DNA of 51,348 bases from contig JAJDVT010000136.1 of NCBI GenBank assembly GCA_022826005.1, positions 1 to 51,348 on the forward strand, read 5' to 3'. Below are positions 1,876 to 43,606 of the stretch, piece by piece (position 1 is the first letter of the stretch; every line of letters starts with the position of its first letter). The notes under the pieces are model-generated. The model did no database searches. It was not told the DNA's origin and saw only the letters and a list, made by a program, of their open reading frames with translations. Position numbers and translations under genes: made by a program. This DNA is from Gemmatimonadota bacterium (GTDB taxonomy: Bacteria; Gemmatimonadota; Gemmatimonadetes; Longimicrobiales; Gaopeijiaceae).

Positions 1876-2032
1876 GGGGGGCTCCTTCGGGGGGCTCGGT
1901 AGTGCTGTGTGCGTCTTGGGGGGCGACAGCATGTCAATTGGGGACGAGGCGGGAATGTGGGTGTGGCGGACGACGGCCGCAACGGAATGGGGGGTTACGG
2001 CGACCCTCTCCGGTGCGTCCCGGTAGTTCCCC

Positions 2033-2071
2033 ATCATGATAATCTACTGGATCACTTGAAATCATCATGAT
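2033..2071 (+). promoter_or_regulatory. Pair of ATCATGAT palindromes upstream of the ATPase gene
   Basis: The perfect 8-bp palindrome ATCATGAT occurs at 2033-2040 and again at 2064-2071. The copies are 31 bp apart centre to centre, close to three helical turns, inside an AT-rich stretch that stands out from the GC-rich surroundings. The second copy ends 12 bases before the ATPase start codon, a good place for a repressor operator. The binding protein is unknown. Confidence 0.45.
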
Positions 2072-2083
2072 AAATTCAAACTC

Positions 2084-3241
2084 ATGTTCAAACGAAACCT
2101 GATTCTGCCCAGGCCGGGAACGGAAACCTTCTTCCTCTGGGGACCCCGGCAGACGGGGAAGAGCACGCTGCTGCGGACGCACTATCCGGGCGGCTACTGG
2201 ATCGACCTGCTGAAGAGCGACGAGTTCAGGCGGTATGCGACACGGCCGGAACTCCTGCGGCTGGAGCTGGAGGCGGATTCCGATCGCGGGCGCCAGATCG
2301 TCATCGACGAAGTGCAGAAGGTCCCCGCGCTCCTGAACGAGGTGCACTGGCTGATGGAGAACCGCGGCCTGCACTTCGCGCTCTGTGGATCCAGCGCCCG
2401 GAAAGTGAGGCGGGGTGCGGCGAACCTGCTCGGGGGGAGGGCGCTGCGCCATGAGCTGCGGGGCCTGACAGCGGGTGAACTCGCGGACGATTTCGATCTC
2501 GACCGGCTCCTCAACAGCGGATACCTGCCCCGCATCCATCAGGCGGCGCGGCCCCGGCGGCTCCTCGACGCCTACATTGCCGACTATCTGAAGGAGGAAG
2601 TAGCCGCCGAGGGACTGGTCAGGAACCTTCCCGCCTTCTCCGGCTTTCTGGATGCGGCCGCGCTGAGCGACACGGAGCCGGTCAACTTCTCGAACGTTGC
2701 CCGCGAGTGCGGGGTATCGAGTCAGGCCGTCAAGAACTACTTCGGCATCCTGGAAGACACGCTGCTGGGCCGCTGGCTGCCGGCCTGGCGGAAGCGTCGC
2801 AAGCGGCGCCTCATCGTCGCGGCCAAGTTCTACTTTTCGGACGTGGGAGTGGTGAACCGGCTGGCGCGGCGGGGCCGCCTGGAACGTGGCTCCGAGCTGT
2901 ACGGCAAGGCCTTCGAGAACTGGGTGCACCATGAACTCGCGGCGTTCGTGGCCTACACCGGCTTCGATGGCGGGCTCACGCACTGGCGGCTGCCGAGCGG
3001 CGTCGAGGTCGACTTCGTGCTGGGCGAGATGGAGCTCGCGGTGGAGGCCAGGGCTAGCGCGGTGATCGGCCGGCATCACCTGAAGGGGCTGCGCAGCCTG
3101 GCGACGGAACACGATGTGGGCCGGCGGGTGATCGTGTGTCTCGAACCGCGGGCGAGGCGGACCGCGGACGGGATCGAGGTGCTGCCGGCGGGGGCGTTTG
3201 CGCGAAGGTTGTGGGGGGGTGAGCTGACGGCTGGGGCTTGA
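2084..3241 (+). CDS. AAA_14/DUF4143 family ATPase
   Basis: A 385-residue protein. The N-terminus carries an AAA_14 P-loop: Walker A GPRQTGKST at residues 20-28 and a Walker B-like strand QIVIDEVQK near residue 75, followed by a sensor segment LCGSSARK. The C-terminal half is a DUF4143 domain with a winged-helix-like part (about 195-230, SSQAVKNYFGILEDT) and a PDDEXK-like end (EVDFVL near 305, then VEARAS). Members of this family are widespread and often mobile; their biochemical role is not settled. No Shine-Dalgarno sequence precedes the ATG, which follows an AT-rich leader with two palindromes. It stands alone between oppositely oriented genes. Confidence 0.85.
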   Translation: MFKRNLILPRPGTETFFLWGPRQTGKSTLLRTHYPGGYWIDLLKSDEFRRYATRPELLRLELEADSDRGRQIVIDEVQKVPALLNEVHWLMENRGLHFALCGSSARKVRRGAANLLGGRALRHELRGLTAGELADDFDLDRLLNSGYLPRIHQAARPRRLLDAYIADYLKEEVAAEGLVRNLPAFSGFLDAAALSDTEPVNFSNVARECGVSSQAVKNYFGILEDTLLGRWLPAWRKRRKRRLIVAAKFYFSDVGVVNRLARRGRLERGSELYGKAFENWVHHELAAFVAYTGFDGGLTHWRLPSGVEVDFVLGEMELAVEARASAVIGRHHLKGLRSLATEHDVGRRVIVCLEPRARRTADGIEVLPAGAFARRLWGGELTAGA

Positions 3242-3920: not shown

Positions 3921-4973
3921 ATGGGTGTGCGGCTGCTGGTGGGCACCTCGAAGGGCGGGTTCTGGGTGACGAGCGACGATCGCCGCGAGTGGGCGGTCGA
4001 GGGGCCCTTCTTCAAGGGATGGAAGGTGACGGCGGGACTGCGGCTGGCCGGCGGCGGGTTCATGGCTGCGGTCGCGAGCGACATCTACGGGCCGGCGATC
4101 TTCCTGTCCGCGGACGGCGAGGAGTGGGAGCAAGTGGAGGAGGGGCCGGCCTACCCGGACGGCGACGACCGCAGGCTGCGGCAGGTCTGGACGCTGCGCG
4201 AGCACCGGGGGACGGTCTACGCGGGCGTTCAGGATGCGGGACTGTTCACCAGCGGCGATGGCGGACGGTCGTGGAAGCCGGTGCCGGGGCTGAACGATCA
4301 CGAGACGCGCGGCGGGTGGATGCCGGGGGCGGGGGGGCTCTGCTGCCATGCGGTCCTCTTCGACCACGCGAATCCCGACCGCGTGTGGTGCGGGATCTCG
4401 GCGGTCGGCGTCTTCCGCACCGACGACGGCGGCACCACCTGGACTCCGAAGAACCGGGGCGTGTACTGGGCGCACGAGGACGAGGAGTTCAAGGAGATCG
4501 GGCACTGCGTGCACGGGATGGCGCAGGATCCGGACGATCCGGGGCGGATCTTCCGCCAGGATCATTCAGGGATGTACCGGAGCGGCGATGGCGGGGAGAG
4601 CTGGACGAAGAACGAGACCGGGCTTCCGTCGGGGTTCGGCTTCCCGGTCGTGATGGACGACGCCACCCGGTACCTCTTCGCGGTCCCGCTGGAAGCCGAC
4701 CAGTACCGGCTGCCTGCCGGGGGTGCGATTCGGGTGTACCGCAGCACCGATGGTGGGGACAGCTGGCACTCGGCGTCGGCGGGATTGCCTGCGGAGCACG
4801 CGTACGGCGGGGTCCTCCGGGGAGCGATGGCTGTGGACAATCTGGATCCGGGGGGCGTGTACATGGGGACGACCTCGGGAACGCTGCATGTGAGCCGGGA
4901 TCTGGGGGAGAGCTGGGTGAATCTTCCGGTGATGCTGCCGCGGGTCCTGCACCTGTCGGCGTGGGTCGGGTGA
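3921..4973 (+). CDS. BNR/Asp-box repeat protein (sortilin/WD40-YVTN-like propeller)
   Basis: A 350-residue cytoplasmic beta-propeller. The start MGVRLLVGTSKGGFW at 3921 has AGGGAG ten bases upstream; the ATG nine bases earlier is too close to that site. Asp-box motifs (SxDxGxxW) repeat through the protein: TSGDGGRSW, RTDDGGTTW, RSGDGGESW, RSTDGGDSW and SRDLGESW. There is no signal peptide. The stop codon overlaps the start of a MoaD/ThiS-like gene (TGATG), so the two products are made together. Asp-box propellers include sialidases and sortilin-like proteins, but the catalytic arginines of sialidases are not evident, so a binding or structural role is more likely. Confidence 0.85.
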   Translation: MGVRLLVGTSKGGFWVTSDDRREWAVEGPFFKGWKVTAGLRLAGGGFMAAVASDIYGPAIFLSADGEEWEQVEEGPAYPDGDDRRLRQVWTLREHRGTVYAGVQDAGLFTSGDGGRSWKPVPGLNDHETRGGWMPGAGGLCCHAVLFDHANPDRVWCGISAVGVFRTDDGGTTWTPKNRGVYWAHEDEEFKEIGHCVHGMAQDPDDPGRIFRQDHSGMYRSGDGGESWTKNETGLPSGFGFPVVMDDATRYLFAVPLEADQYRLPAGGAIRVYRSTDGGDSWHSASAGLPAEHAYGGVLRGAMAVDNLDPGGVYMGTTSGTLHVSRDLGESWVNLPVMLPRVLHLSAWVG

Positions 4974-5251: not shown

Positions 5252-5349
5252 CGGCCACGGCTGCGGTCTGCTCTCCGCGATTCGGAGACGCGGGCCGGAG
5301 CCCGGGGAAAAGTGCCGGTTGGGTGGAATCCCACGTTGGCCGAAAGTGC

Positions 5350-5378
5350 TTGCGATTCTATACATGAGACACTATGGT
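5350..5378 (+). promoter_or_regulatory. Putative sigma-70-type promoter
   Basis: A TTGCGA hexamer (5350-5355) and a TATGGT hexamer (5373-5378) are separated by 17 bp. They lie about 120 bases upstream of the small secreted-protein gene in the 245-base gap after the MoaD-like gene, with a hairpin between promoter and gene. The match to consensus is moderate (4/6 each). Confidence 0.35.
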
Positions 5379-5387
5379 GTAACCCTC

Positions 5388-5406
5388 TGCGGTAGCGAAT
5401 ACCGCA
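5388..5406 (+). promoter_or_regulatory. Leader hairpin upstream of the small-protein/propeller pair
   Basis: TGCGGTA (5388-5394) pairs perfectly with TACCGCA (5400-5406) around the 5-base loop GCGAA. It lies 10 bases downstream of the putative -10 box, so it would be an operator or the first hairpin of the transcript. Confidence 0.35.
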
Positions 5407-5496
5407 ATCGACAACCTGGCGTGTACGAAGCCACATGGGGAAAAGAGGCCCAATAGCGGCTTGCCGACACCCACCTTTACGAAAGGAAGAAGTAAG

Positions 5497-5829
5497 ATGG
5501 CGACAATGAATCAGAAAGTACTATATTGTGTTGCATTCTGTGCATTAGCGTTGGTAGCGTCCGTTGGAGAAACCACGGCGAGTGGTCTGCCCGCAAGCCT
5601 GTCGGCCATGGACGAATGCAGTGATTGGGAGGACTGGGACCACCTGCGGTTCTGGGGACTGTGGACAGACGAGTATCACGTCTCTTCATCGCCGGACTAC
5701 AATCCAGACCAGGAGAGCAGGTGGTGGAGGCCCGTCCGGATAGTGTTCGCAACCGGAGAGAAACACTACCATCCGCTGCCCAAGTATACCTTGGACGCCC
5801 ACCATGAAGCCTGCGGAGGCTGGCTTTGA
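5497..5829 (+). CDS. Small secreted protein coupled to a beta-propeller gene
   Basis: A 110-residue protein of unrecognised family. The ATG at 5497 follows GAAAGGAAG. Residues 1-29 are a signal peptide (MATMNQKV, then a hydrophobic core, cleaved near TTASG). The mature part is aromatic and acidic, with many Trp (DWEDWDHLRFWGLW), several His near the end, and only two cysteines (DECSDW and EACGGWL), which could form one disulfide. Its TGA stop overlaps the TTG start of the propeller gene (TTGA), implying translational coupling and a matched dose of the two exported products. The local GC is lower than in the flanks. Confidence 0.7.
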   Translation: MATMNQKVLYCVAFCALALVASVGETTASGLPASLSAMDECSDWEDWDHLRFWGLWTDEYHVSSSPDYNPDQESRWWRPVRIVFATGEKHYHPLPKYTLDAHHEACGGWL

Positions 5830-6998
5830 GACGCTCGGTTGCGGCGCTCATCGTCTGTACGAGCCTCGCGGTGGCCCAGCCGGCCCATGGCTGTCAGTCC
5901 CCTGCATCGTCCTGCCCACGTGCGCCGGAGCGGTCCTTCGCGGTGGGAGAGGTCACCGGGATTCCGGACCGCACCCCGCCGTGCCACATCGAGTTTCGCG
6001 AGACCGGAATTCGGCTGGAGGCGACGGCCGACGGCAGCAGACCGGACCCCGGCATGACCGTCGTGGTGGATTCCAACGGCCGCTTCTTCACCTCGGACGC
6101 ACCGGGATGGAGGGCGATCATCAGTATCTGGGATGCGCGTGGACGGTATCTCTCCCATTTCGGTGGGGCGGGCGAGGGTCCGGGTGAGTTGAGTGCGCGC
6201 GGAGGGGTGGAGCTGTTCATTGACAGCCGGGACAACCTTCACGCCCGCGATGGTTCGTTCCATTGGTCGGTCTTCACTCCGGAGCAGCAGTTCCTGCGGC
6301 GGGTCAGGTCCAACATGATGGGTGGACTGCCGTGGACGACCGTCATTCTGGACGACGGGTCGGCGCTGGCCAGCGACGGTCTGGTGTCCCAGGAGCACTA
6401 CTTTCGCGTGACCGACTCCACGGGTGCCCTTGCACGCACGTTCGGACCGGTGGGCGACGGTTCGTCAGGGCGCAGGCGGCGGCCCATTTCCCAGGCGGCT
6501 GGCGACACCTTCTGGGCGGGGCCGGGCCAGCTGGGCTCGGATGCCTACGTTGTGGAAGAGTGGGGGATCGACGGAACGTTTCGCCGGGCGTTTCGGCGGG
6601 ACGTTTCGTGGTACCAGTGGGACGGGGCGACCGAGGATGCCCCCCGGGTAACGCAGATCCACATCACGCGGGGCGGCCTTCTCTACGCGGTCGTCTGGCG
6701 TCCCACCGAACGGTACGTGAGGGAGCGAGCGAGAGCGGAGAGAAGGGCCGGGCCCGTCGATTTCGGGGAATTGCAGGCAGAGCAGGAACGGATGGATGAA
6801 TTCACGGAACTCGTCCTCGAGGTGATCGACACCAGGTCCGGCCGGTTGCTTGCTTCGGAGACGTACCGGACATCGGACATGCGCGAGATTCTTCCGTGGG
6901 GTCTGTTCCGCGGCTCGTTCACGGGGTATCGCTACAAGGAAAACGAGGGCGGTCTGCCATTCGTGGAGATCGTGACCCTGGAACTGGTGGCTCGCTGA
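5826..6998 (+). CDS. Secreted 6-bladed beta-propeller protein
   Basis: A 390-residue NHL/6-bladed propeller-like protein. The TTG start overlaps the stop of the small secreted gene. Residues 1-22 form a signal peptide ending PAHGC; a lipid anchor on that Cys is possible but no clear lipobox is seen. Family marks are the VVDSNGRFF strand, HFGGAGEGPGEL near residue 119, and a closing YKENEGGLPFVEIVTLEL. An Arg-rich helical insertion with RERARAERRAGP lies near 300. Proteins of this kind are abundant in Gemmatimonadota and Bacteroidota and are probably exported binding proteins; no enzyme residues are visible. Confidence 0.8.
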   Translation: MRRSVAALIVCTSLAVAQPAHGCQSPASSCPRAPERSFAVGEVTGIPDRTPPCHIEFRETGIRLEATADGSRPDPGMTVVVDSNGRFFTSDAPGWRAIISIWDARGRYLSHFGGAGEGPGELSARGGVELFIDSRDNLHARDGSFHWSVFTPEQQFLRRVRSNMMGGLPWTTVILDDGSALASDGLVSQEHYFRVTDSTGALARTFGPVGDGSSGRRRRPISQAAGDTFWAGPGQLGSDAYVVEEWGIDGTFRRAFRRDVSWYQWDGATEDAPRVTQIHITRGGLLYAVVWRPTERYVRERARAERRAGPVDFGELQAEQERMDEFTELVLEVIDTRSGRLLASETYRTSDMREILPWGLFRGSFTGYRYKENEGGLPFVEIVTLELVAR

Positions 6999-7029
6999 TG
7001 AGGCAGACGGGTTTGGGGAGGGCGGAAGG

Positions 7030-8256
7030 TTGAGAACCGGGGATTCGCGAGCGATTGCTGCGACGGCATGGGGGCTGGTGCTCGTTGCCGGCGCCTGTCG
7101 CGGGGATGATGTGCGGGTGGGACAGGCACCGCTCGGCTGGGGCGGGACGACCGAAGCCAACGAGGTGCGGCTGTGGATGGCCGAGAGCCTTGAGTCGGCG
7201 ACTCGGTGGAGGGTCGCGGATGAGCCCGTCTTCGAGTTGGTGCCCGATTCGGTTCTGTACCGATTCACCGGAATGGGCCAACGATACGCCAGCGAGGCGA
7301 CCTTCCTGCCCGATGGACGATTCGTCGTGCTCTATTCCCTGAGTGAACTGTTGGATCCGGATTCGCTTCTACTGCAGATTCTCGATCCGGTGAGTGGTGA
7401 AGAGACCCGCATACCGGCCCCGCGGGGCGAGCGAGACCAACCCCTGAGTTGGGTACATTTCGGCCTGGCGTTCCACGGCCGGGACATCCTGCTGACGGGA
7501 GACAACCAGCCGCCGCTGAGCCGGCGGCAAGGGCAGGATGTCTGGAGGGCCGATGGACAGGGCCGCTTCATCAGGCCTCCATCGCACACCGGCACTTCGG
7601 GAAGCCTCCTTGGCGTGTTTCCGGACGGATCGCTGGTCCTCGCGGGGCGCTCCGGCTCCACGGATACCACGATAGTCTGGTCGACGATGGCCGTGGAGCC
7701 GTTGGAAGTCGGGGATGATCCTTCGGAATCGGACGGGGGGGACGTGCTGTTCACAACGGCGGTTCTGCGGGATCCCACCATCACGCATGCAGTCTCACCA
7801 ATGCCGTTCGCACATGTGCCTCACAGCACGACGGCGGTGTCGGGCGACACGATCTGGATCGTTCCCACGGAGAAGCCGGAGCTTCTTGCCGTGCACCGGT
7901 CGGGAAGGATCGTCTTGAAGGTCGAGTGGGAGGCGGGGGACCGCTCCATTCCGGAAGGGGTGGCATCCGCCCCGGAGGGTTTGGAGCGGTTTCCCGCCGC
8001 CACCGACCTCGGCGTCGGCGCCGATGGCCTGATCTACCTGGAGAGAGTTGTCGTGCACGAAGGTCGTCCGAGGCGCGGTCTGGAGTGGCTCGTCTTCAGC
8101 CCGGCGGGGGGACTGGTGGCTCGTCTCGATGTTCCGGAGAGACTCGCGTCCATGGCTGTGCTTGCATTCGGCGACGGCGCCCTGGTCGCCAGGGCGCGCG
8201 ACGCGGAGACCGGTCTTCAGGAGGTCCGGGTCTACCGGTTCAGCAAGTCGGATTAG
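7030..8256 (+). CDS. 6-bladed beta-propeller lipoprotein
   Basis: A 408-residue lipoprotein starting at TTG 7030, 31 bases after the previous propeller. The signal peptide ends in the lipobox VAGAC (Cys-23). Propeller strands include YASEATFLPDGRFVVLYS, LLGVFPDGSLVLAGRSG, DTIWIVPTEKPELLAVHRSG and DLGVGADGLIYLERVV, the regular repeat of a six-bladed fold. Unlike its neighbours it lacks a clear GEGPGEF loop, so it belongs to another subgroup. It is probably in the same transcript as the upstream pair. Confidence 0.75.
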   Translation: MRTGDSRAIAATAWGLVLVAGACRGDDVRVGQAPLGWGGTTEANEVRLWMAESLESATRWRVADEPVFELVPDSVLYRFTGMGQRYASEATFLPDGRFVVLYSLSELLDPDSLLLQILDPVSGEETRIPAPRGERDQPLSWVHFGLAFHGRDILLTGDNQPPLSRRQGQDVWRADGQGRFIRPPSHTGTSGSLLGVFPDGSLVLAGRSGSTDTTIVWSTMAVEPLEVGDDPSESDGGDVLFTTAVLRDPTITHAVSPMPFAHVPHSTTAVSGDTIWIVPTEKPELLAVHRSGRIVLKVEWEAGDRSIPEGVASAPEGLERFPAATDLGVGADGLIYLERVVVHEGRPRRGLEWLVFSPAGGLVARLDVPERLASMAVLAFGDGALVARARDAETGLQEVRVYRFSKSD

Positions 8257-8265
8257 GCAGGATGG

Positions 8266-8282
8266 CGCTGGCCCCGCCAGCG
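8266..8282 (+). terminator. Weak hairpin after the propeller operon
   Basis: CGCTGG and CCAGCG form a 6-bp stem around CCCCG starting 9 bases after the propeller stop codon. There is no T-tract, so intrinsic termination is doubtful. Confidence 0.25.
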
Positions 8283-8408
8283 TCCGGAGCGTTCGCCGGG
8301 GCGAGATGCCCGATCGGCACCGTTCTCGCAGTCCGATCGTGCCCCTTCCGGGGGGGCAGCATTTCGAGGCTCGGGCTTGTGAACCGCGTCGGCAGGGAAT
8401 ATATCGCC

Positions 8409-8501
8409 ATGAGCTTTGTCTTCACCGTGATCGTAGTGGTTCCGCTGCTCACCGTGGGGATCTACCGCCTGAGGGGCCGTGCCATGGCCGAAAGGGACTG
8501 A
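8409..8501 (+). CDS. Very small membrane protein
   Basis: A possible 30-residue protein: MSFVFTVIVVVPLLTVGIYR, then a basic tail RLRGRAMAERD. One membrane helix followed by positive residues fits a single-pass protein with its C-terminus inside. AGGGAA lies about 11 bases upstream, a little far. The stop is 4 bases before the amidase start, so the two may be coupled. The 150 bases before it contain nothing else recognisable. Confidence 0.35.
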   Translation: MSFVFTVIVVVPLLTVGIYRLRGRAMAERD

Positions 8502-8505
8502 GGAA

Positions 8506-10146
8506 ATGAACAAGTCAGGAATCGATCGACGCCGCTTCGTTGCTACCGCTGCTGCGGCCGCTGCCGCCGGGACGCTGAGACCGGGTACGCTGGGTGGCTC
8601 AGAGGCGTTTGCCGGCACCGCTGTCGCTCCCGCACCCCCCCTTCAGGCCCCCCAACAGCAGGAGCCCCCGCCCCCCGTCCCCCTCGGGAACGGGGAGCCC
8701 CCCGCGCTCCAGTTCCAGGCCTACCCGGGGGGAACCGGCGCCCTCATGGAGAAGCTGTGGCGCAAGGACGGCGGCAATCCCTTCGAGCGGACCGCCATCG
8801 ACATCGAGCGCTGGAGCGGACCGGTCCCGACCAGCGAGGAGGATCTCGCATTCCAGCCGGTGCACCGCCTCGCGGCGCTGATCCGCGCGCGGGAGATCAC
8901 GTCTTCCGAGCTCACCGAGGTCTACCTCGACCGCCTCAAGCGGCTGGATCCCGTCCTCCTCTGCGCGGTGACCATCCTGGAGGGCCGCGCCCGGGAAGAG
9001 GCGCACCAGGCCGATCTGGAAATCGCCGCGGGCGAGTGGCGCGGACCCCTGCACGGCATCCCCTATGGGGTCAAGGATCTGTTTGCCGTTGCGGGTACCC
9101 GCACGACCTGGGGCGCCGCCGACTTCAGCAACCAGTTCACCCGGTATGACTCCGAGGTCGTGGTGCGGCTGCGGGAGGCGGGTGCGGTGCTCGCGGCCAA
9201 GCTGGCGACCGGGGAGTTCGCGCGCGGCGACCAGTGGTACCGCGGCCGGACCCGCAATCCGTGGAACGTGGACGAGGGATCGAGCGGGTCGTCGGCAGGC
9301 CCCGGGTCGGCCACGGCGGCCGCCTGCGTCGCCTTCGCGATCGGCACCGAGACCCAGGGCTCCATCGTGTCGCCCTCGCGCCGCTGCGGCCTCACCGCGC
9401 TCCGGCCCACCTTCGGCCGCGTCAGCCGCTACGGCGGGATGGTCCTGTCCTGGAGCATGGACAAGACCGGGCCGATGTGCCGCAGCGCCCTCGACTGCGC
9501 CCTCGTCTTCAACGCCATCCACGGCTCGGACGAGAAGGACCCAGGGTCGCTGACCACTCCCTTCCGCTTCAACCCAGCCCCCGACCTCGCCGCCATGAGA
9601 ATCGGCTACACCGAGGACGCGCCGGAGTCGTTCGTCGAGGCACTACGCGGGATGGGCGCCGACCCGCAGCCCATGCCCGAGATCCCGTCGGGGCGTTCCA
9701 ACGCGCTCGGCGTCGAGTCGGCCGCGGCCTTCGACTTTCACGTCGCGCCCGGCGGTGAGCTGCCCCAGATCCCCGAGGACGCGGATCCGGCTGAGCGCCG
9801 GCGTCGCGGCCGCTTCCGGGGCAGCCGGGAGGTTCCCGCCCTCGACTTCGTGCAGTCCCAGCGCCGCCGGCTCATCCTCATGAAGGAGATGGCCGAGGTC
9901 ATGCGGGACTTCGACATGTTCGTGAGCGGGTCGGGGCAGGTCGGCCTCACCAACCAGACCGGGAACCCCGCGGCGGTCGTCCCCTACGACTTCGGCGTGC
10001 GCAACCCGGATTCCGACAGCCCGACCGAGATGCCGCTCACGACCACCTTGATCGGCGATCTGTTCGCGGACGACAAGATCCTGAGCGTGGCCCACGCGTA
10101 CCAGGCGGGGACGGACTGGCATTTGAGGAGGCCGGAGGTTGGGTAG
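8506..10146 (+). CDS. Tat-exported amidase-signature family hydrolase
   Basis: A 546-residue amidase. The ATG at 8506 was chosen because it gives a Tat signal peptide: DRRRFVATAAAAAAAGTL with twin arginines. A Pro-rich linker follows. The Ser-cisSer-Lys triad is visible: Lys in GIPYGVKDLF, the cis-Ser in the Gly/Ser loop DEGSSGSSAGPGSA, and the nucleophile Ser in ETQGSIVSPS. The family hydrolyses amide bonds (GatA, fatty-acid amide hydrolase and others); export suggests an external amide or peptide substrate. GatA is unlikely because of the Tat signal and the absence of gatB/gatC. A sigma-factor gene starts 6 bases after its stop. Confidence 0.9.
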   Translation: MNKSGIDRRRFVATAAAAAAAGTLRPGTLGGSEAFAGTAVAPAPPLQAPQQQEPPPPVPLGNGEPPALQFQAYPGGTGALMEKLWRKDGGNPFERTAIDIERWSGPVPTSEEDLAFQPVHRLAALIRAREITSSELTEVYLDRLKRLDPVLLCAVTILEGRAREEAHQADLEIAAGEWRGPLHGIPYGVKDLFAVAGTRTTWGAADFSNQFTRYDSEVVVRLREAGAVLAAKLATGEFARGDQWYRGRTRNPWNVDEGSSGSSAGPGSATAAACVAFAIGTETQGSIVSPSRRCGLTALRPTFGRVSRYGGMVLSWSMDKTGPMCRSALDCALVFNAIHGSDEKDPGSLTTPFRFNPAPDLAAMRIGYTEDAPESFVEALRGMGADPQPMPEIPSGRSNALGVESAAAFDFHVAPGGELPQIPEDADPAERRRRGRFRGSREVPALDFVQSQRRRLILMKEMAEVMRDFDMFVSGSGQVGLTNQTGNPAAVVPYDFGVRNPDSDSPTEMPLTTTLIGDLFADDKILSVAHAYQAGTDWHLRRPEVG

Positions 10147-10152
10147 GGGGGG

Positions 10153-10851
10153 TTGGACGGCGTGCGACCGATAGCGGAAGGCCGCGTCGAGCAGTGGGCG
10201 GAACGGTACCGCCACGTGATGCTCCGGGTCGCCCTCGGCCTGATGGCGCGCCCGGACGATGCGGAGGACGTTGTACAGCGGGCGCTGGTGGCGGCTGTCG
10301 CCAGGGCACGCCGGAGGCCGCAAGCGGTGATGGCGGTACGACATCCCCGTGCTTGGCTTGCTGCGATCACGCGGAACGTTGCGCTCGACACCCTGCGAAA
10401 ACGGGCGCGTCGCAAGCGGATCCGGCACCGCAATGAGGCAGAGATCCGCGAGCAGCTTGTCTTGGAGCCGGACTTCGGCTGGGACGCGGATCGCCTAAGC
10501 GAGCGGGTATCCGCCGCCGCCGAACGGGTGCTGAGCGCCAAACAGCTTCGGGTCGTTCGGGGCATGCTGGAGGGCAGAACGGACGCTCAGATCTCGCGGG
10601 ACGAAGGGATGGCGAGAGGGTCCGTGCGGAGGCTGCGCAGCGAAGCGATCCGTGTGCTCCGGGGTCATTTTGCCGAGTCGGGGGGGGGGGGGGGCGGGGC
10701 GCCCCCCCCGGTGGACGCTGTGGTCCACGGGTGTGAGGAAGGCGGAAACGGAAGCGGCCGACCCGCATGTGCAGCCCGGGTCGCAACCGGCCCAAGACGC
10801 CCCTCCAGATGGCCAACCGAACGGATCGCGGGTCTCATGACGTCTATGTGA
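10153..10851 (+). CDS. ECF-like RNA polymerase sigma factor
   Basis: A 232-residue ORF from TTG 10153 (an in-frame GTG lies 9 bases on). Region 2 is clear: RYRHVMLRVALGLMARPDDAEDVVQRAL, then HPRAWLAAITRNVALDTLRKRARR. Region 4 follows: AAERVLSAKQLRVVRGMLEG, and the helix-turn-helix DAQISRDEGMARGSVRRLRSEA near residues 145-165. After about residue 175 the frame enters a 15-G run and a Pro/Gly/Arg-rich tail unlike a sigma factor, so the true end is probably near 10680 or the tract has shifted the frame. It follows the amidase by 6 bases. No anti-sigma gene is adjacent. Confidence 0.8.
   Translation: MDGVRPIAEGRVEQWAERYRHVMLRVALGLMARPDDAEDVVQRALVAAVARARRRPQAVMAVRHPRAWLAAITRNVALDTLRKRARRKRIRHRNEAEIREQLVLEPDFGWDADRLSERVSAAAERVLSAKQLRVVRGMLEGRTDAQISRDEGMARGSVRRLRSEAIRVLRGHFAESGGGGGGAPPPVDAVVHGCEEGGNGSGRPACAARVATGPRRPSRWPTERIAGLMTSM
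10680..10709. repeat. Homopolymer run G15 followed by C8
   Basis: Fifteen G at 10680-10694, then C-GGGG-C-G, then eight C at 10702-10709. The run falls just after sigma region 4. Such a tract is prone to slippage and to sequencing error, and it could act as a phase-variation site. Confidence 0.9.
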
Positions 10852-10921
10852 CTAGAGAGGGTACCCCAGAAACACTGCGCCATATCCCAACCGCCTTTTG
10901 CGCGGAGGAGGTGTTAAGGCT

Positions 10922-11161
10922 ATGCTTACCGGAATAGAGATTCTTATGATTATCTGCAACGCGTTACTGGCTGGGTGCTGGGAAGGGTGTACGGCTGTCG
11001 TGGAAACGGATCTTGAATTCAAAGTAATCACACCCGCCGAGGCTGACGCGGCGTTCGAAGAATGTGTCACGGAATACTGCCCCGAAGGCACAACGGGTTG
11101 CTTTGCCGTTTTTCCAGGGGCAAATCCGTTTGCAGCCGGAGACGAAGACGAAGGAGGGTGA
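10922..11161 (+). CDS. Small exported Cys-containing protein
   Basis: A 79-residue protein of no recognised family. The ATG follows GGAGGAGG about 10 bases upstream. A short hydrophobic N-terminus (IEILMIICNALLAGCWEGC) could be a signal or lipoprotein peptide with LAGC as a lipobox. The mature part contains EECVTEYCPEGTTGC and an acidic Gly-rich tail GDEDEGG. The same layout (C-x3-C-P, then an acidic tail) recurs in the next gene and in a remnant before another propeller. It opens a lower-GC stretch that ends with a propeller lipoprotein. Confidence 0.55.
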   Translation: MLTGIEILMIICNALLAGCWEGCTAVVETDLEFKVITPAEADAAFEECVTEYCPEGTTGCFAVFPGANPFAAGDEDEGG

Positions 11162-11228
11162 GTCAGGAAAAGGGCATGAGTCAATCAACCTGCGAGGGCT
11201 AAAGGGCCCAGGAAGGACCGCATCACCG

Positions 11229-11714
11229 ATGACCGTCACGAAATTCTCTATTATTCTGCCGCTCTTGGGTTTGATTCACGCTGCAGTTGCTGACTTTTCG
11301 GGCCCCGACCTCAGTATTGAGTCATCCCCATCATGTGCCTCTAACTCCGTAGAATTCCGTTACAACCAGGTGCCGTTATCCGAGCAGCGCTCGACACCAT
11401 CTCAAACGCAGACCTACCAGGTGACCCTTCTGCGCAGCCCGATGCAAGTTGCTATGCATATGTTGTTGTCTCTTCAGAAACCGAGCCCGTCAATATACTT
11501 CTACGCGGTGCAGTCGTTGCTTGAGTGCCTACTTAAGCATGAGATTTGCGAACGTGTCTGCGCGCGTGCTGCGGCTGACCGAGCCGGCGTCCTCACCCCG
11601 GAACAAGTCGACAGTTATTTCTGGATCTGTGTGTCCCGGTGCCCTTCATGTGTACGGTCATCAGGCGCAGAAGAGGAAGAAGAGGAAGGCAACGGGGAGG
11701 GAAACGGCCCATGA
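11229..11714 (+). CDS. Small secreted Cys-containing protein coupled to a propeller gene
   Basis: A 161-residue protein with no recognised family. The ATG at 11229 (MTVTKFSIILPLLGLIHAAV) starts a signal peptide and has AAGGA upstream. The C-terminal third is Cys-rich: LLECLLKHEICERVCARA, then YFWICVSRCPSCV, followed by a run of Glu and Gly. Its stop overlaps the ATG of the propeller lipoprotein (ATGA). A similar C-terminal pattern (HCPTC and an acidic tail, also overlapping the propeller start) is found upstream of the paralogous propeller at 42190-43356, which argues that the pair is a real unit. Lower GC than the surroundings. Confidence 0.6.
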   Translation: MTVTKFSIILPLLGLIHAAVADFSGPDLSIESSPSCASNSVEFRYNQVPLSEQRSTPSQTQTYQVTLLRSPMQVAMHMLLSLQKPSPSIYFYAVQSLLECLLKHEICERVCARAAADRAGVLTPEQVDSYFWICVSRCPSCVRSSGAEEEEEEGNGEGNGP

Positions 11715-12868
11715 GAGGAACAACCTGCGGAGTCAAGCCCGAGGCCGTGCGGGCCATTTTCCTTTGCCTCTTGGCAGGGTGTTTCGGAGCCTTTCTGGCG
11801 AGCTGCGATTCTCCCGACGTAGAGATTGACGCGGAGACAGAGAACGACGCGGAGGTGTTGACAATTGAACCAGCATTGATTGGTTCAGCCCACGTCCCCT
11901 ACAGTATGACCACCAGTGTTGCCCTTCTTGATGAGCATACGGCCTGCACGATCGATACCTATGAGACAAAGATTGACTGCGTCACCCGGTCAGGCGCGAT
12001 CACTGGACGCTTTGGGTCAACGGGTGAAGGTCCCGGTGAGTTTGTCCGTCCGAGTCGGCTGGTGCGGGGCAGCGGAGGCACTCTTGGTGTGACCGACCCA
12101 GCACGCGGGAGGTTTTTTGCGTTCACGAGAACAGGGGAGTTGGTTGCCGAGGTTTCGTTACCTGTTCCGGCGTTCATCCCGGCGGCCGCGTTTGACACGA
12201 CAATAATCGGTTCGTACATCAGTGGCTATGGTCCGGACCCGACGGCAAGGGGTGGGATGGCGGCTGCCGAGATCCTGCTTGCTACGGGGGAGCTGGTACG
12301 AGAGTGGCGGCCGACACGCGTGCCCCAAGTCCCGGAATGTGGTATGCCGTATTTCGGCTTTCCGGCGGTTGGCGGGTTCTCTGGGGACCAAAGCTGGGTG
12401 TTTATGGCATGCAACGGCCACATTGCGTTTGTAGAGCCGGACGGGGAGACTACCGTGATAGAGGCTCCGACTTATGCTGGCGACCTTCCGGGGGAGAGGG
12501 ATTTGGAGGAGCATCGCAATGTCATTGGCGATTTTCGCCGACGGAATGGCATAACCACAGACCTTAGTGGCAGTATCAGGAGATTCGCTGAGAGGCCAAT
12601 GACATACTTCTTGGGGAGCGGCCAGGAGACGTTTGATAGCCAGGGGCGTCTGTGGATCTCGACCAGGCGGAACCGCAACGAGGCGTCATTTGTTGATATC
12701 TACGCGGGGACTGAGTATGTGGGCACGGTCAAGGTGAGGGATCGTATGATAGACTTTGATGTGTTTGAGGGTACTCTGGCCGTGTTGGTTGAACGTCAGG
12801 CAGGATCTGGTGACGCCGATGGTATCCCGGACCGTGGAATCGATTGGTATGACCTTGATGGGTTCTAG
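11711..12868 (+). CDS. 6-bladed beta-propeller lipoprotein
   Basis: A 385-residue lipoprotein. The ATG at 11711 overlaps the upstream stop. The signal peptide ends at LASC (lipobox). It is a close relative of the protein at 42190-43356 along its full length: both share VPYSxTxSVALxDxxTACTxDTYExK, a GxGPGEF loop, the segment QETxDSQGRLWIST, VRDRMIDFDV and the end IDWYDxxGF. It is probably a periplasmic or outer-membrane binding protein. The gene is markedly poorer in GC than the neighbouring operons, suggesting recent acquisition with its small partners. Confidence 0.8.
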   Translation: MRGTTCGVKPEAVRAIFLCLLAGCFGAFLASCDSPDVEIDAETENDAEVLTIEPALIGSAHVPYSMTTSVALLDEHTACTIDTYETKIDCVTRSGAITGRFGSTGEGPGEFVRPSRLVRGSGGTLGVTDPARGRFFAFTRTGELVAEVSLPVPAFIPAAAFDTTIIGSYISGYGPDPTARGGMAAAEILLATGELVREWRPTRVPQVPECGMPYFGFPAVGGFSGDQSWVFMACNGHIAFVEPDGETTVIEAPTYAGDLPGERDLEEHRNVIGDFRRRNGITTDLSGSIRRFAERPMTYFLGSGQETFDSQGRLWISTRRNRNEASFVDIYAGTEYVGTVKVRDRMIDFDVFEGTLAVLVERQAGSGDADGIPDRGIDWYDLDGF

Positions 12869-12911
12869 CTTAGACTAGGGGTTTGCGCCGCAGGAAATCG
12901 TAGCGGCAATC

Positions 12912-13094
12912 TTGAGTGGTCGGCGGCGGGTCCTCGACCGTTGGTCTGCGTCCAGGCTCTTCCAACTGTCCGAAGAGGAGGAGGCGGCCACGTTGCATCT
13001 GGCTGAGGAATCCGTCAGACTGCGACTGCTCGCCGTTCTGCCGGAACGAGGCCGGCTGACCAACGCCGAGATCCGCCGATCGACCCATGTATTA
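12912..13094 (+). pseudogene. Possible remnant of a winged-helix (RecG/AlbA_2-like) regulator
   Basis: An open stretch without a good start encodes VRLRLLAVLPERGRLTNAEIR, which resembles the C-terminal winged helix of AlbA_2/RecG-like ATP-binding regulators. It follows the propeller gene and runs into the 3' end of the opposite-strand radical SAM gene. The similarity is short, so this is a weak call. Confidence 0.25.
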
Positions 13095-13098
13095 GCGG

Positions 13099-13119
13099 GC
13101 CGGTCACCCCGCGACCGGC
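13099..13119 (-). terminator. Hairpin overlapping the end of the PKS operon
   Basis: GCCGGTC (13099-13105) pairs with GACCGGC (13113-13119) around a 7-base loop, a perfect GC-rich 7-bp stem at the stop codon of the last operon gene. No T-run follows on the minus strand, so it may act with Rho or only stabilise the 3' end. Confidence 0.4.
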
Positions 13120-14861
13120 AGGTTGACGTTGGCCGGCACGGCCGGTGGAGCCTCCGAACTCAACGCCAGCTGGAAAGCCGCCAGACTCTCGGCGATCCCA
13201 TCTCCGGCAAAGCGGAATTCCTCGGGGATGGTTCGCTGGCGCTCCTTTGCGCGTTGAAGCGCCGCCTTTCTGAGCTCGTCCCACATTTCCGGTTCCGCAT
13301 CAGGCCCCCGCCTGGCTTCATTGAACGACGCCAACTCCGATTTCACGTATTCCTTGAAGCCGCGAATCATGGTCTGCTGACGCGTGAACTTCTCGCAGTG
13401 GTATCCCATGCCGGCCAGACGGATGGCCAGCGGCAGGAGTCGGGGGTGTTCCCTGGATACCCTGGCGATGTAGCGCGAGAACACCGGCAACTGCTCCGGG
13501 GTCAGGCGCCGCCGGATTCCCATGATGGCCGCATAGAGGATGTGCTTGCCAACGGGCTTGTACAGATGCGGTACCGGGTTGAGGTTCTGCAACAGGGTCA
13601 GACAGCGGTCGAAGTAGTTCTCCAGCGTCGAATCGTAGATGGTCCCGATGACCCGGAGGTAGCCTTCCACCAGCGTCTGGGGGTCCATTTGCGGCTTGAA
13701 GTTCAGGGCGGTGTCGTCGATCTCGACCGGTTTGTCCAGCAACCGATTCTCGCGCTCCAGCCGCGTCCACAGGTTTGTTCCCTTGAGTGCGGTCAGCAAG
13801 CCGATCAATGAGATCGGAATCCCGGCCTCCTGGATGAAGTCGATCTGGGCATCGAACGCGTTGTCATCGTCGTCGTCGAGGCCGAGGATGAAGCCGCCCA
13901 GAACCATCATTCCCTTCTGCTGAATCTTGCGCACGGATGTGAACAGGTAGTTGTCGTCGCGCATGTCGAGATTCTGAGGCTTCTTCATCTTCTTGAGAGC
14001 CTTCGGGTTGGGCGTCTCGATGCCCAGGAAGACGGCGTCGAAGCCGGCCTCGATCATGACATCCATCAGGTCGTTCATCCGAACGATATTGACGCTTGCT
14101 TCGGTGAACAGCGAATAGGGATGGCCACGCTCCTTCTGCCATTCCGCAATCACGGGGAGAAGCCTTGAGACTTCGCGCTTGTTGCCGATGAAGTTGTCAT
14201 CGACCAGGAAGAGCGGACCGCGCCAGCCCAGCTCGTACAGGCGATCGAACTCGGCCACCATCTGCTGCGGCGATTTCGTTCTCGACACCCGGCCGTACAG
14301 CTTCGTGATGTCGCAGAACTCGCAGTCGAAGGGACATCCCCGCGAGAACTGCAGACACATCGAGTGATACTCGCTCATGTCGATGAGGTCGAAGCGGGGA
14401 ATCGGAGCCAGGGTCATGTCCGGCTTTCTCGGGGCGCGATAGATGGGTTTGGCCGTGCCGCTTTCCAGGTCGCTCAGGAAGGTCGCGAAGGTCTCCTCGA
14501 CCTCATCGAGGACGAAGTGATCGATCCCCTCGATCTCTTCGTGAAAGGTGGTGGGATGCGGCCCGCCGGCGATGACCGGAACACGCGCGCGGTTGCAGCG
14601 CTCAACGACCTGCTCGAGCGATGGGCGCTGCGGAATCATGGTCGACGTGAAGGCCAGGTCCGCCCACTCCAGGTCGTCGTCCTCGAGCGGGGTCACGTTG
14701 AGGTCGACCACGCGCAGGTTGTACCGGGACGGAAACATCGCGGCGACGGTGAGCAGGCCGAGAGGAGGGAACACCGCCTTGATGCCCTGGAGGTCCAGGG
14801 CGTAGTTGTTGCCCCAGTAGGTGGGAGGCTGCTTCGGGTAGACGAGTAGGGCGTTCGACAT
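13104..14861 (-). CDS. B12-binding-type radical SAM protein (DUF4070-like), last gene of the PKS operon
   Basis: A 585-residue protein (an ATG 12 bases further upstream would add MEQH; the chosen start has GGAG 8 bases before it). The N-terminal cobalamin-type domain is seen in AFPPLGLLTVAAMFP-like spacing (here VFPPLGLLTVAAM) and VPVIAGGPHPT. The radical SAM cluster CPFDCEFCD has its CxxxCxxC cysteines at about residues 176, 180 and 183. FLGIETPNPKALKKM and VLGGFILGLDDDDD are further family segments, and the C-terminal third is DUF4070-like. Related enzymes, including hopanoid methylases, methylate unactivated carbons. It begins just after the reductase/sulfotransferase stop, so it likely modifies the polyketide. 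The substrate is inferred from context only. Confidence 0.85.
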   Translation of the reverse strand: MSNALLVYPKQPPTYWGNNYALDLQGIKAVFPPLGLLTVAAMFPSRYNLRVVDLNVTPLEDDDLEWADLAFTSTMIPQRPSLEQVVERCNRARVPVIAGGPHPTTFHEEIEGIDHFVLDEVEETFATFLSDLESGTAKPIYRAPRKPDMTLAPIPRFDLIDMSEYHSMCLQFSRGCPFDCEFCDITKLYGRVSRTKSPQQMVAEFDRLYELGWRGPLFLVDDNFIGNKREVSRLLPVIAEWQKERGHPYSLFTEASVNIVRMNDLMDVMIEAGFDAVFLGIETPNPKALKKMKKPQNLDMRDDNYLFTSVRKIQQKGMMVLGGFILGLDDDDDNAFDAQIDFIQEAGIPISLIGLLTALKGTNLWTRLERENRLLDKPVEIDDTALNFKPQMDPQTLVEGYLRVIGTIYDSTLENYFDRCLTLLQNLNPVPHLYKPVGKHILYAAIMGIRRRLTPEQLPVFSRYIARVSREHPRLLPLAIRLAGMGYHCEKFTRQQTMIRGFKEYVKSELASFNEARRGPDAEPEMWDELRKAALQRAKERQRTIPEEFRFAGDGIAESLAAFQLALSSEAPPAVPANVNLPVAG

Positions 14862-42189: not shown

Positions 42190-43356
42190 CTATCTGCCGC
42201 CCTCCCGGAACCCCCGAATGTCGTACCAATCAATCGCCCGATCTGCAACACCGTCTGAGTCCTCCGGGCCAATCCCCCGTTCTACGAGTACTGCCAGCGT
42301 ACTGCCGATGACATCAAAGTCGATCATTCGGTCCCTTACCATCACGGTACCGTAGTACTCCTGCCCCTGGTACACGTCCAGGTACGACTGCGTGTCCCGG
42401 TCGCGGGAAGTCGAGATCCACAGTCTGCCTTGCGAGTCCAACGTCTCCTGCCCCCTCTGCAGGAAATAGAGCTTCGGCTGTTGAGCGTACTCCTGCATCC
42501 GTCCTTCCGGATCCACCGCGGGACTGGGTCGACCCATGATCTGTTCCATCCTTCTGCCGAACTCCTCGAGTTCCTCTCGGCGCGATGTGATGTCTCGCTC
42601 GCTCGGGAATTCGTCGAAGTAGGTGGGAGCCTTCATCACCGTCGGCTGTCCGGAACCACGCGTGAACGCCAAGTGCCCTCCGCATCCCAGGAAGACCCAT
42701 GAACTGTCCGACCGCTCGCCCACCGGGAAGCCGAACGCGGGTGAGCCGCACTCTTCGACGAGGGGAACACTGGCTGGGCGCCATTCCTCAAGAACATCAC
42801 CCGTCTCCAGATCGATCTCCGCCGCGACCAGCGTCAGGGCAAAGGCGCTTGCCGTGAAAGACGATGGGTATGTGCCTGTGACCGTCGCGCCGAACGGGGA
42901 GATCGGCTGAAATATGGAAAACGGCAATTCGGTTTCCCTCACCGTGATGCCAAGAGGTGTAACCTCATGGAAGGTGTTTCGGTCAAGGAATCCGAGCGTA
43001 CCATCGACACCACGCACCAGGCTCCCGGGAACCTGGAACTCCCCGGGACCCTCCCCCTCCCTGCCGAAGCTGGCGAGCAGACGCCCGGACCGCTCGACAC
43101 ACACGATCTTGACTTCGTAGGTATCGACGGTGCACGCCGTCTCGGGATCGACCAGAGCTACGCTCACTGTAAAACTGTACGGTACCGCCGCGGTCCCGGT
43201 CAGTTGTGGAGCAAATGGTTCGGGTACGCTTGCCGCTCCGGGCCGATCGGTCGCGCAGCCCACCGGCTGAAGCGCCAGCAGGCCAGCCACGATCGTGGCT
43301 ACTGCCCCGGGAATCGTGGTACGCCGCCGTGGTCTTGGTGCACCGCTGCTACCCAC
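42190..43356 (-). CDS. 6-bladed beta-propeller lipoprotein, paralogue of 11711-12868
   Basis: A 388-residue protein from GTG 43356. The signal has an Arg-rich start and a core ending GLLALQPVGC, a lipobox-like site. It aligns over its whole length with the protein at 11711-12868: VPYSFTVSVALVDPETACTVDTYEVK, FGREGEGPGEFQVPG, GQETLDSQGRLWIST, VRDRMIDFDV and the end AIDWYDIRGF. The GTG overlaps the stop of a short upstream reading frame (GTGGGTAG) that looks like the tail of the Cys-containing partner. It converges on the TonB receptor gene. Confidence 0.8.
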   Translation of the reverse strand: MGSSGAPRPRRRTTIPGAVATIVAGLLALQPVGCATDRPGAASVPEPFAPQLTGTAAVPYSFTVSVALVDPETACTVDTYEVKIVCVERSGRLLASFGREGEGPGEFQVPGSLVRGVDGTLGFLDRNTFHEVTPLGITVRETELPFSIFQPISPFGATVTGTYPSSFTASAFALTLVAAEIDLETGDVLEEWRPASVPLVEECGSPAFGFPVGERSDSSWVFLGCGGHLAFTRGSGQPTVMKAPTYFDEFPSERDITSRREELEEFGRRMEQIMGRPSPAVDPEGRMQEYAQQPKLYFLQRGQETLDSQGRLWISTSRDRDTQSYLDVYQGQEYYGTVMVRDRMIDFDVIGSTLAVLVERGIGPEDSDGVADRAIDWYDIRGFREGGR

Positions 43357-43459
43357 CAGTCAGCGCCTCCTGGATCTCCTCCGCGATCTCCTCCGCACTA
43401 CAGGTCGGGCAATGGCTCGCCCAAGACAAATAGAAACTGTGTGGTTCGGATACCCTTTG
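43349..43459 (-). pseudogene. Remnant of a Cys-containing partner gene
   Basis: An open stretch of 36 codons with no start encodes YLSWASHCPTCSAEEIAEEI and ends GG-stop, overlapping the propeller start. It resembles the C-terminus of the partner protein at 11229-11714 (YFWICVSRCPSCV, then an acidic run), and its overlap with the next gene is of the same kind. Upstream the frame is closed by a stop and no signal peptide was found in any frame, so it seems to be a 3' remnant or a frameshifted gene. Confidence 0.4.
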
Positions 43460-43606
43460 TTAACAAGTGTCACGAACACCCGATTCTGTTGGTTTCTTCC
43501 CCACCAGCCTGCCAGGGGGACCGTGGTGAAGAGGGTTTTGAGGAGAAACGCGATTCCCGCGAATCGAGGCGCTTTCCCGCTGCCGGAGCCCTATGTCCTC
43601 CACCCC

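Follow-up and report, generated by a model that had tools for sequence, protein, structure and literature searches.

Do the small exported proteins that are encoded directly in front of six-bladed beta-propeller genes in Gemmatimonadota belong together with these propellers, and if so, as what kind of pair? This question is raised by contig JAJDVT010000136.1 (51,348 nucleotides (nt); G000:C75 in the numbering used here), hereafter called the window, of a Gemmatimonadota bacterium whose genome comprises 4.85 Mb in 143 contigs. At two places, 5497/5826 and 11229/11711, a small open reading frame (ORF) whose beginning resembles a signal peptide shares its last nucleotides with a propeller gene (overlaps TTGA and ATGA, respectively), just as an earlier sequence-only reading of the window had stated (Table 1). 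Here, the window was compared with 394 genomes of the class, 121 of the family and 23 of the genus. This revealed a closely coupled gene order, its recurrence in unrelated families of small proteins (types I, II and III), a pairing that is specific for propeller clades, and purifying selection on the small genes. We propose, with a probability of roughly 0.55, that these cassettes encode a cognate extracytoplasmic pair, in which a disulfide-stabilised small protein would dock on its own propeller.

The pairing was counted by the distance between the stop of the small gene and the start of the propeller, with 160 nt as the upper limit and the start picked by a hydrophobicity heuristic. A propeller follows within this distance in 11/11 cases for type I, 14/15 for type II and 19/23 for type III, and in 17 of these 44 pairs the two genes overlap. 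The sole miss of type II is a contig end, and one miss of type III (G083:C66) has its propeller somewhat farther on. The three small families are mutually unrelated in sequence. In a FastTree phylogeny of 196 propeller rows, the labels I, II and III require two changes, which is the minimum, compared to a mean of 18.6 after shuffling; the deep forks of this tree are unsure owing to long branches. Furthermore, pairwise comparisons within each small family yielded ratios of non-synonymous to synonymous substitution rates (dN/dS) of 0.35, 0.15 and 0.41 for three pairs of type I and of 0.26–0.53 within type II; in type III, they were 0.18 and 0.55. These values indicate that the small genes encode real proteins generally under purifying selection, which is usually weaker than that on the propellers. 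Throughout, signal peptides were assigned by a heuristic of our own (a hydrophobic, positively flanked start) instead of SignalP, and lipoboxes by a simple pattern.

For the type I gene at 5497, an ORF of at least 110 amino acids (aa) arose within 5252-5829 in 7% of first-order simulations. Its length alone is therefore insufficient proof, and its reality rests on the homologs and on dN/dS. A profile built from nine members (A5, E<1e-20) detects type I at 11 places in 4/394 class genomes, all four belonging to the genus; two weak matches at E 0.007-0.01 (G276, G116) were left out. The gene at 5497 and the 10 further places match the profile and stand directly before a homolog of propeller A, with a gap of 4-10 nt or an overlap of 4-16 nt. 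Across the nine aligned members, the residues C41, H61, W77, H103 and C106 are invariant, and the two invariant cysteines lie far apart. An independent search for propeller A (E<=1e-20, 15 candidates per genome scored) found at least 28 places in 7/121 family genomes: 11 of the 28 have an intact small gene, two a C-terminal remnant (L067, L084; L labels denote fetched stretches), and the others no small gene, a cut one or a contig edge. A homolog of gene B is the third gene after small gene and propeller A in G019, in G021 and at G000:C66. The sequence-only reading had regarded a lack of conservation of the small ORFs as an argument that would speak against the pairing; the family of 5497 is conserved, and two further small families are likewise placed.

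Type II is characterised by the motif C-x3-C-x20-27-C-x3/4-C and occurs in 12/394 class genomes (E<=1e-3, as for type III). Homologs of propeller C are present at 90 places in 22/23 genus genomes, and the scan of their upstream DNA for small ORFs yielded members in G016, G019 (two), G021 (two), G028 and G032 (two). A profile search blind to propellers found those in G003, G002 and G015, and a class-wide profile search of the 394 genomes added G121, G125 and G178 (family f4) as well as G349 (family f3). Thus, 7 of the 15 members came from profiles only; all six of these with downstream sequence precede a propeller (families f1, f3 and f4), whereas G002 ends at a contig edge. Broken copies exist at G000:C52 (L007) and probably also before propellers in G026 and G029 (L107, L145). 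Within the window, the ORFs at 11229 and 10898 (GCWEGC...ECVTEYC), the latter absent from the cases of the sequence-only reading, carry the motif, which arose in 0.4% and 0.35% of residue shuffles, respectively. First-order simulations of the intergenic DNA at 11229 gave an ORF of at least 161 aa in 1.8% and of at least 216 aa, the full GTG-started frame, in 0.14%. A CPxC segment with an acidic tail, seen earlier as common to 11229 and 43356, is present in both, but it is not a conserved signature: the relatives carry CX3C...CX3/4C, which rules out CPxC as the common motif, and the acidic tail is restricted to a few close copies.

Type III was first seen when the other propellers of the same genome were scanned and lies elsewhere in the genome than the window. 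These proteins of ~182 aa display the core CxWC...CxRCGG.S.CH...CH..CG with an invariant tryptophan between two cysteines (CxWC), a C-terminal FIPxGGRID segment and 8-10 cysteines. They occur at 26 places in 8/394 class genomes, 23 of which were kept after three short fragments had been dropped (G021:C37:64393, G021:C37:65955 and G028:C74:23517); three of the 23 are seeds found via propellers. The stretch L211 (G000:C71:92000-111999) contains, at ~6900-14400, tandem cassettes of type III and propeller, solitary propellers, one inverted, and decayed starts of small genes.

Table 1. Features of the window that are discussed in the text (positions count from the first letter of the window).
Feature	Position	Strand	Remark
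Small exported protein of type I (110 aa)	5497..5829	+	stop overlaps next start as TTGA; profile, dN/dS
Propeller A, 390 aa, signal peptide, without clear lipobox; partner of type I proteins	5826..6998	+	
Gene B, second propeller-like exported protein, 408 aa	7030..8256	+	homologs including L249
Extracytoplasmic function (ECF)-type sigma factor, just upstream of the small Cys ORFs	10153..10851	+	
Small Cys ORF, 87 aa from TTG 10898 or 79 aa from ATG 10922; lipobox-like LLAGC; CX3C-x23-CX4C	10898..11161	+	
Small exported protein of 161 aa, type II-like; motif ICERVC-x~21-ICVSRC	11229..11714	+	ATGA overlap with next start
Propeller C, 385 aa, with LASC as lipoprotein signal; NHL-like, probably six-bladed	11711..12868	+	
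Propeller D, 388 aa, sharing ~50% identity with C; lacks a small exported partner	42190..43356	-	
Supposed remnant, 20 codons CPTCSAEEIAEEIQEALTGG + stop; CPTC fragment, no export signal, not conserved	43349..43411	-	
28-nt box ACCAACAGAATCGNGTGTTCGNGACACT upstream of D and two paralogs (L003, L164)	43466..43493	-	

For propeller C, sequence and model point to an NHL-like fold. It matches the NHL domain of TRIM2 (E 4.7e-7, residues 82-151), and an AlphaFold2 (AF2) model built from 3 sequences (predicted local distance difference test (pLDDT) 63.7; predicted template modelling score (pTM) 0.65) has a strand pattern compatible with six blades. Foldseek ranked the NHL domains of Brat and TRIM2 best, with template modelling (TM) scores of 0.43-0.50 by query, followed by the streptogramin B lyase Vgb. 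In contrast to the NHL propellers of Brat, TRIM2 and TRIM71 and to Vgb, C is an exported bacterial lipoprotein outside an RNA-binding or lyase context, at 10-14% identity. Most partner propellers of types II and III carry a lipobox, while those of type I mostly do not. DUF5128 (PF17170, "6-bladed beta-propeller") is matched by one propeller from within the genus (L231:8350-9486), with an E value of 1e-4 that is slightly below the cut-off, whereas the propellers of the window are unmatched at E<=1. Among the exported proteins of these genomes, propellers belong to the most abundant, one query giving 42 matches in the window's genome, and some contain N-terminal paired cysteines of their own (SCEEAC, CSTC, CRDC): L184:1462-2595, L269 (minus strand, 2014-3237 of the reverse complement) and the above-mentioned L231:8350-9486 (minus strand). 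Such cysteines might possibly stand in for the small partner within the propeller itself.

How do these cassettes relate to known systems? The small proteins tested have no match above chance in Pfam, NCBIfam, PADLOC or the PDB, matches at E>0.05 being disregarded. In Bacteroidota, NVEALA proteins are found beside six-bladed propellers, and it is this position that the cassettes share, at the frequencies given above. The cysteine patterns and the phylum differ, none of the tested small proteins matches NVEALA (PF14055) at E<=1, and a search of the complete genome at E<=0.1 was likewise negative. Since the cassettes share the position but lack the NVEALA sequence feature, the relation is an analogy only. 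The earlier suggestion of different peptides in another phylum was therefore right in spirit, the named relative being the Gemmatimonadetes metagenome-assembled genome JAJDXM010000032.1. Type II further resembles the small Tim chaperones in its paired CX3C on a short, probably helical protein, but its loop of ~20-27 residues is longer than theirs, it has a signal peptide, and Pfam and the PDB gave no match. No publication on this pairing was found, in a search that covered few subscription journals, and the words "propeller" and "secreted" gave no hit in PMC10469786 and PMC11651109. A small exported protein beside a propeller is thus a loosely known arrangement, of which the present cassettes are a variant.

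Mechanistically, an exported peptide together with its binding protein, as the sequence-only reading had suggested, is plausible. The small protein would be exported by the Sec pathway, as predicted by our heuristic, and held by putative cysteine bridges: two distant cysteines in type I, a probable helical hairpin with paired cysteines in type II, and in type III a domain with 8-10 cysteines plus a C-terminal domain. It would be made just before a six-bladed propeller of one clade, often translationally coupled to it, and such coupling suits two parts that are needed in a fixed ratio. The partner propeller, a predicted lipoprotein in most cases of types II and III, may bind the small protein as ligand or subunit, and the pair may sense or present something at the cell surface.

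Several observations weigh against this proposal. No recognised partner is present at 135 of 174 non-edge propellers (29 edge propellers were excluded from this proportion; those surviving filtering stayed unlabelled in the tree), a number that is slightly too high since the regex-based partner labels of this survey miss some pairs (14 instead of 19 for type III). In favour of the pairing, an automatic criterion, which asked for a signal-like ORF of 50-230 aa that carries two or more cysteines after residue 25 and stops between -75 and +15 relative to the propeller start, was matched at 22/117 propellers versus 3/102 other exported genes in control stretches, but some of the 117 loci had been fetched via small proteins, which inflates the former value. 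None of the 19 signal-bearing propellers in the control stretches matched it, and across their 660 kb, these stretches hold 32 long frames bearing the motif, an upper bound that possibly includes spurious frames. The partnerless majority and the controls together imply that the pairing belongs to certain propeller branches, not to propellers generally. The small families are patchy as well (4, 12 and 8 of the 394 class genomes for types I, II and III), and three type III genes have their propeller directly upstream and none intact downstream. Within the window, neither 11229 nor 10898 is detected by the type II profiles (A2 at E<=0.1, A7 at E<=1e-3), so that both are type II-like only, by motif. 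A search for 11229 in the 121 family genomes gave, besides itself, 11 matches with E>=0.0158 and thus no homolog below 0.01; conservation of this gene is not supported, and an AF2 model of its product alone is uninformative (pLDDT 49). The many partnerless propellers would also suit a mere neighbourhood, in which independent exported proteins are kept together by co-expression or by duplication of the cassette, and a single origin per type followed by vertical descent and local duplication yields the same clade pattern. Nevertheless, three unrelated families converge directly before a propeller, often with an overlap of stop and start, and purifying selection on the small genes persists, and we regard this explanation as rather improbable, though worth keeping in mind.

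A toxin-immunity or bacteriocin-like pair, in which the small cysteine protein would be secreted against relatives, with the propeller lipoprotein shielding the producing cell, would fit to the multi-copy, fast-changing, tandem and decaying cassettes (the array in G000:C71; broken copies in L007, L067, L084, L107 and L145), and the partnerless propellers resemble orphan immunity genes. On the contrary, no exporter, lysis or maturation gene was recognised beside the listed cassettes in a non-systematic inspection, PADLOC gave no match, whole-gene dN/dS is without positive selection, and a six-bladed propeller is not known to serve as an immunity protein. This function appears unlikely. The same holds, even more so, for a two-subunit periplasmic enzyme of the methylamine dehydrogenase type. 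MauA and MauB likewise combine a cysteine-rich small exported protein, the catalytic subunit, with a large propeller subunit, an architecture alike in outline, and the CxWC of type III with its invariant tryptophan would be in line with this. However, neither the tested small proteins nor the window propellers matched the Pfam profiles of the light and heavy chains at E<=1, type III has no PDB match to the light chain, mau maturation genes were not recognised nearby (again not systematically), the cysteine content of types I and II is too low, and the NHL-like propellers would have six blades, not seven. Without support from profiles or the PDB, a MauA-like enzyme was set aside as very improbable.

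The sequence-only reading had listed a third case, a remnant of the same type at the start of propeller D (43356). This fragment, CPTCSAEEIAEEIQEALTGG, overlaps the GTG start of D by 8 nt behind an in-frame stop, offers no start that yields a signal peptide and is absent beside the closest paralogs of D (L003 and L164), with which only the upstream DNA box is shared. It was therefore excluded from the system on grounds of export and conservation. The box itself, ACCAACAGAATCGNGTGTTCGNGACACT, is strongly conserved ahead of starts that have otherwise diverged; one half of it is nearly palindromic, and it is likely a promoter or operator. A SLATT_fungal match on propeller D (E 5.6e-4, below the cut-off, residues 2-29 only) was taken as a signal-sequence artefact.

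Judged from its position, the ECF gene at 10153 possibly regulates the adjacent cassette. Sigma-70/ECF genes are located near several cassettes (besides the window, L232:3247-3759, L250:1876-2421 and, on the minus strand, L248:14205-14861); a position immediately in front is confined to the window and, if one intervening gene is allowed, G028:C121. A thioredoxin-like exported protein is found near cassettes in L232, where it overlaps a propeller start, and in L250, with a weak AhpC/TSA match. Finally, a fourth exported cysteine-rich pattern, CC...CC..CC[WFL]...C, has four copies in the fetched stretches (L214:957-1199 and L232:14367-14822 on the plus strand; L248 ~11294-11545 and L250 ~3935-4240 on the minus strand) and no direct propeller coupling; two of these copies are among the control matches of the automatic criterion.

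If the proposed cognate pairs exist, the cassettes might, more tentatively, represent a repertoire of ligands that are secreted and stabilised by disulfides, every one of them having its own propeller as receptor. Different propeller clades would have recruited their small scaffolds separately, resulting in a polymorphic recognition system that would serve to recognise self or partner, to signal or to antagonise; the partnerless propellers would be a pool of spare receptors. Such a repertoire is conceivable, and we hold it as a doubtful extension of the pair. For the biology of these bacteria, the role of the numerous exported propellers is the issue, and here a defined small partner gives a concrete candidate binding pair. 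Three unnamed small families become available for annotation, and the pairing provides a handle on propeller recognition in a phylum of which very few members have been cultured.

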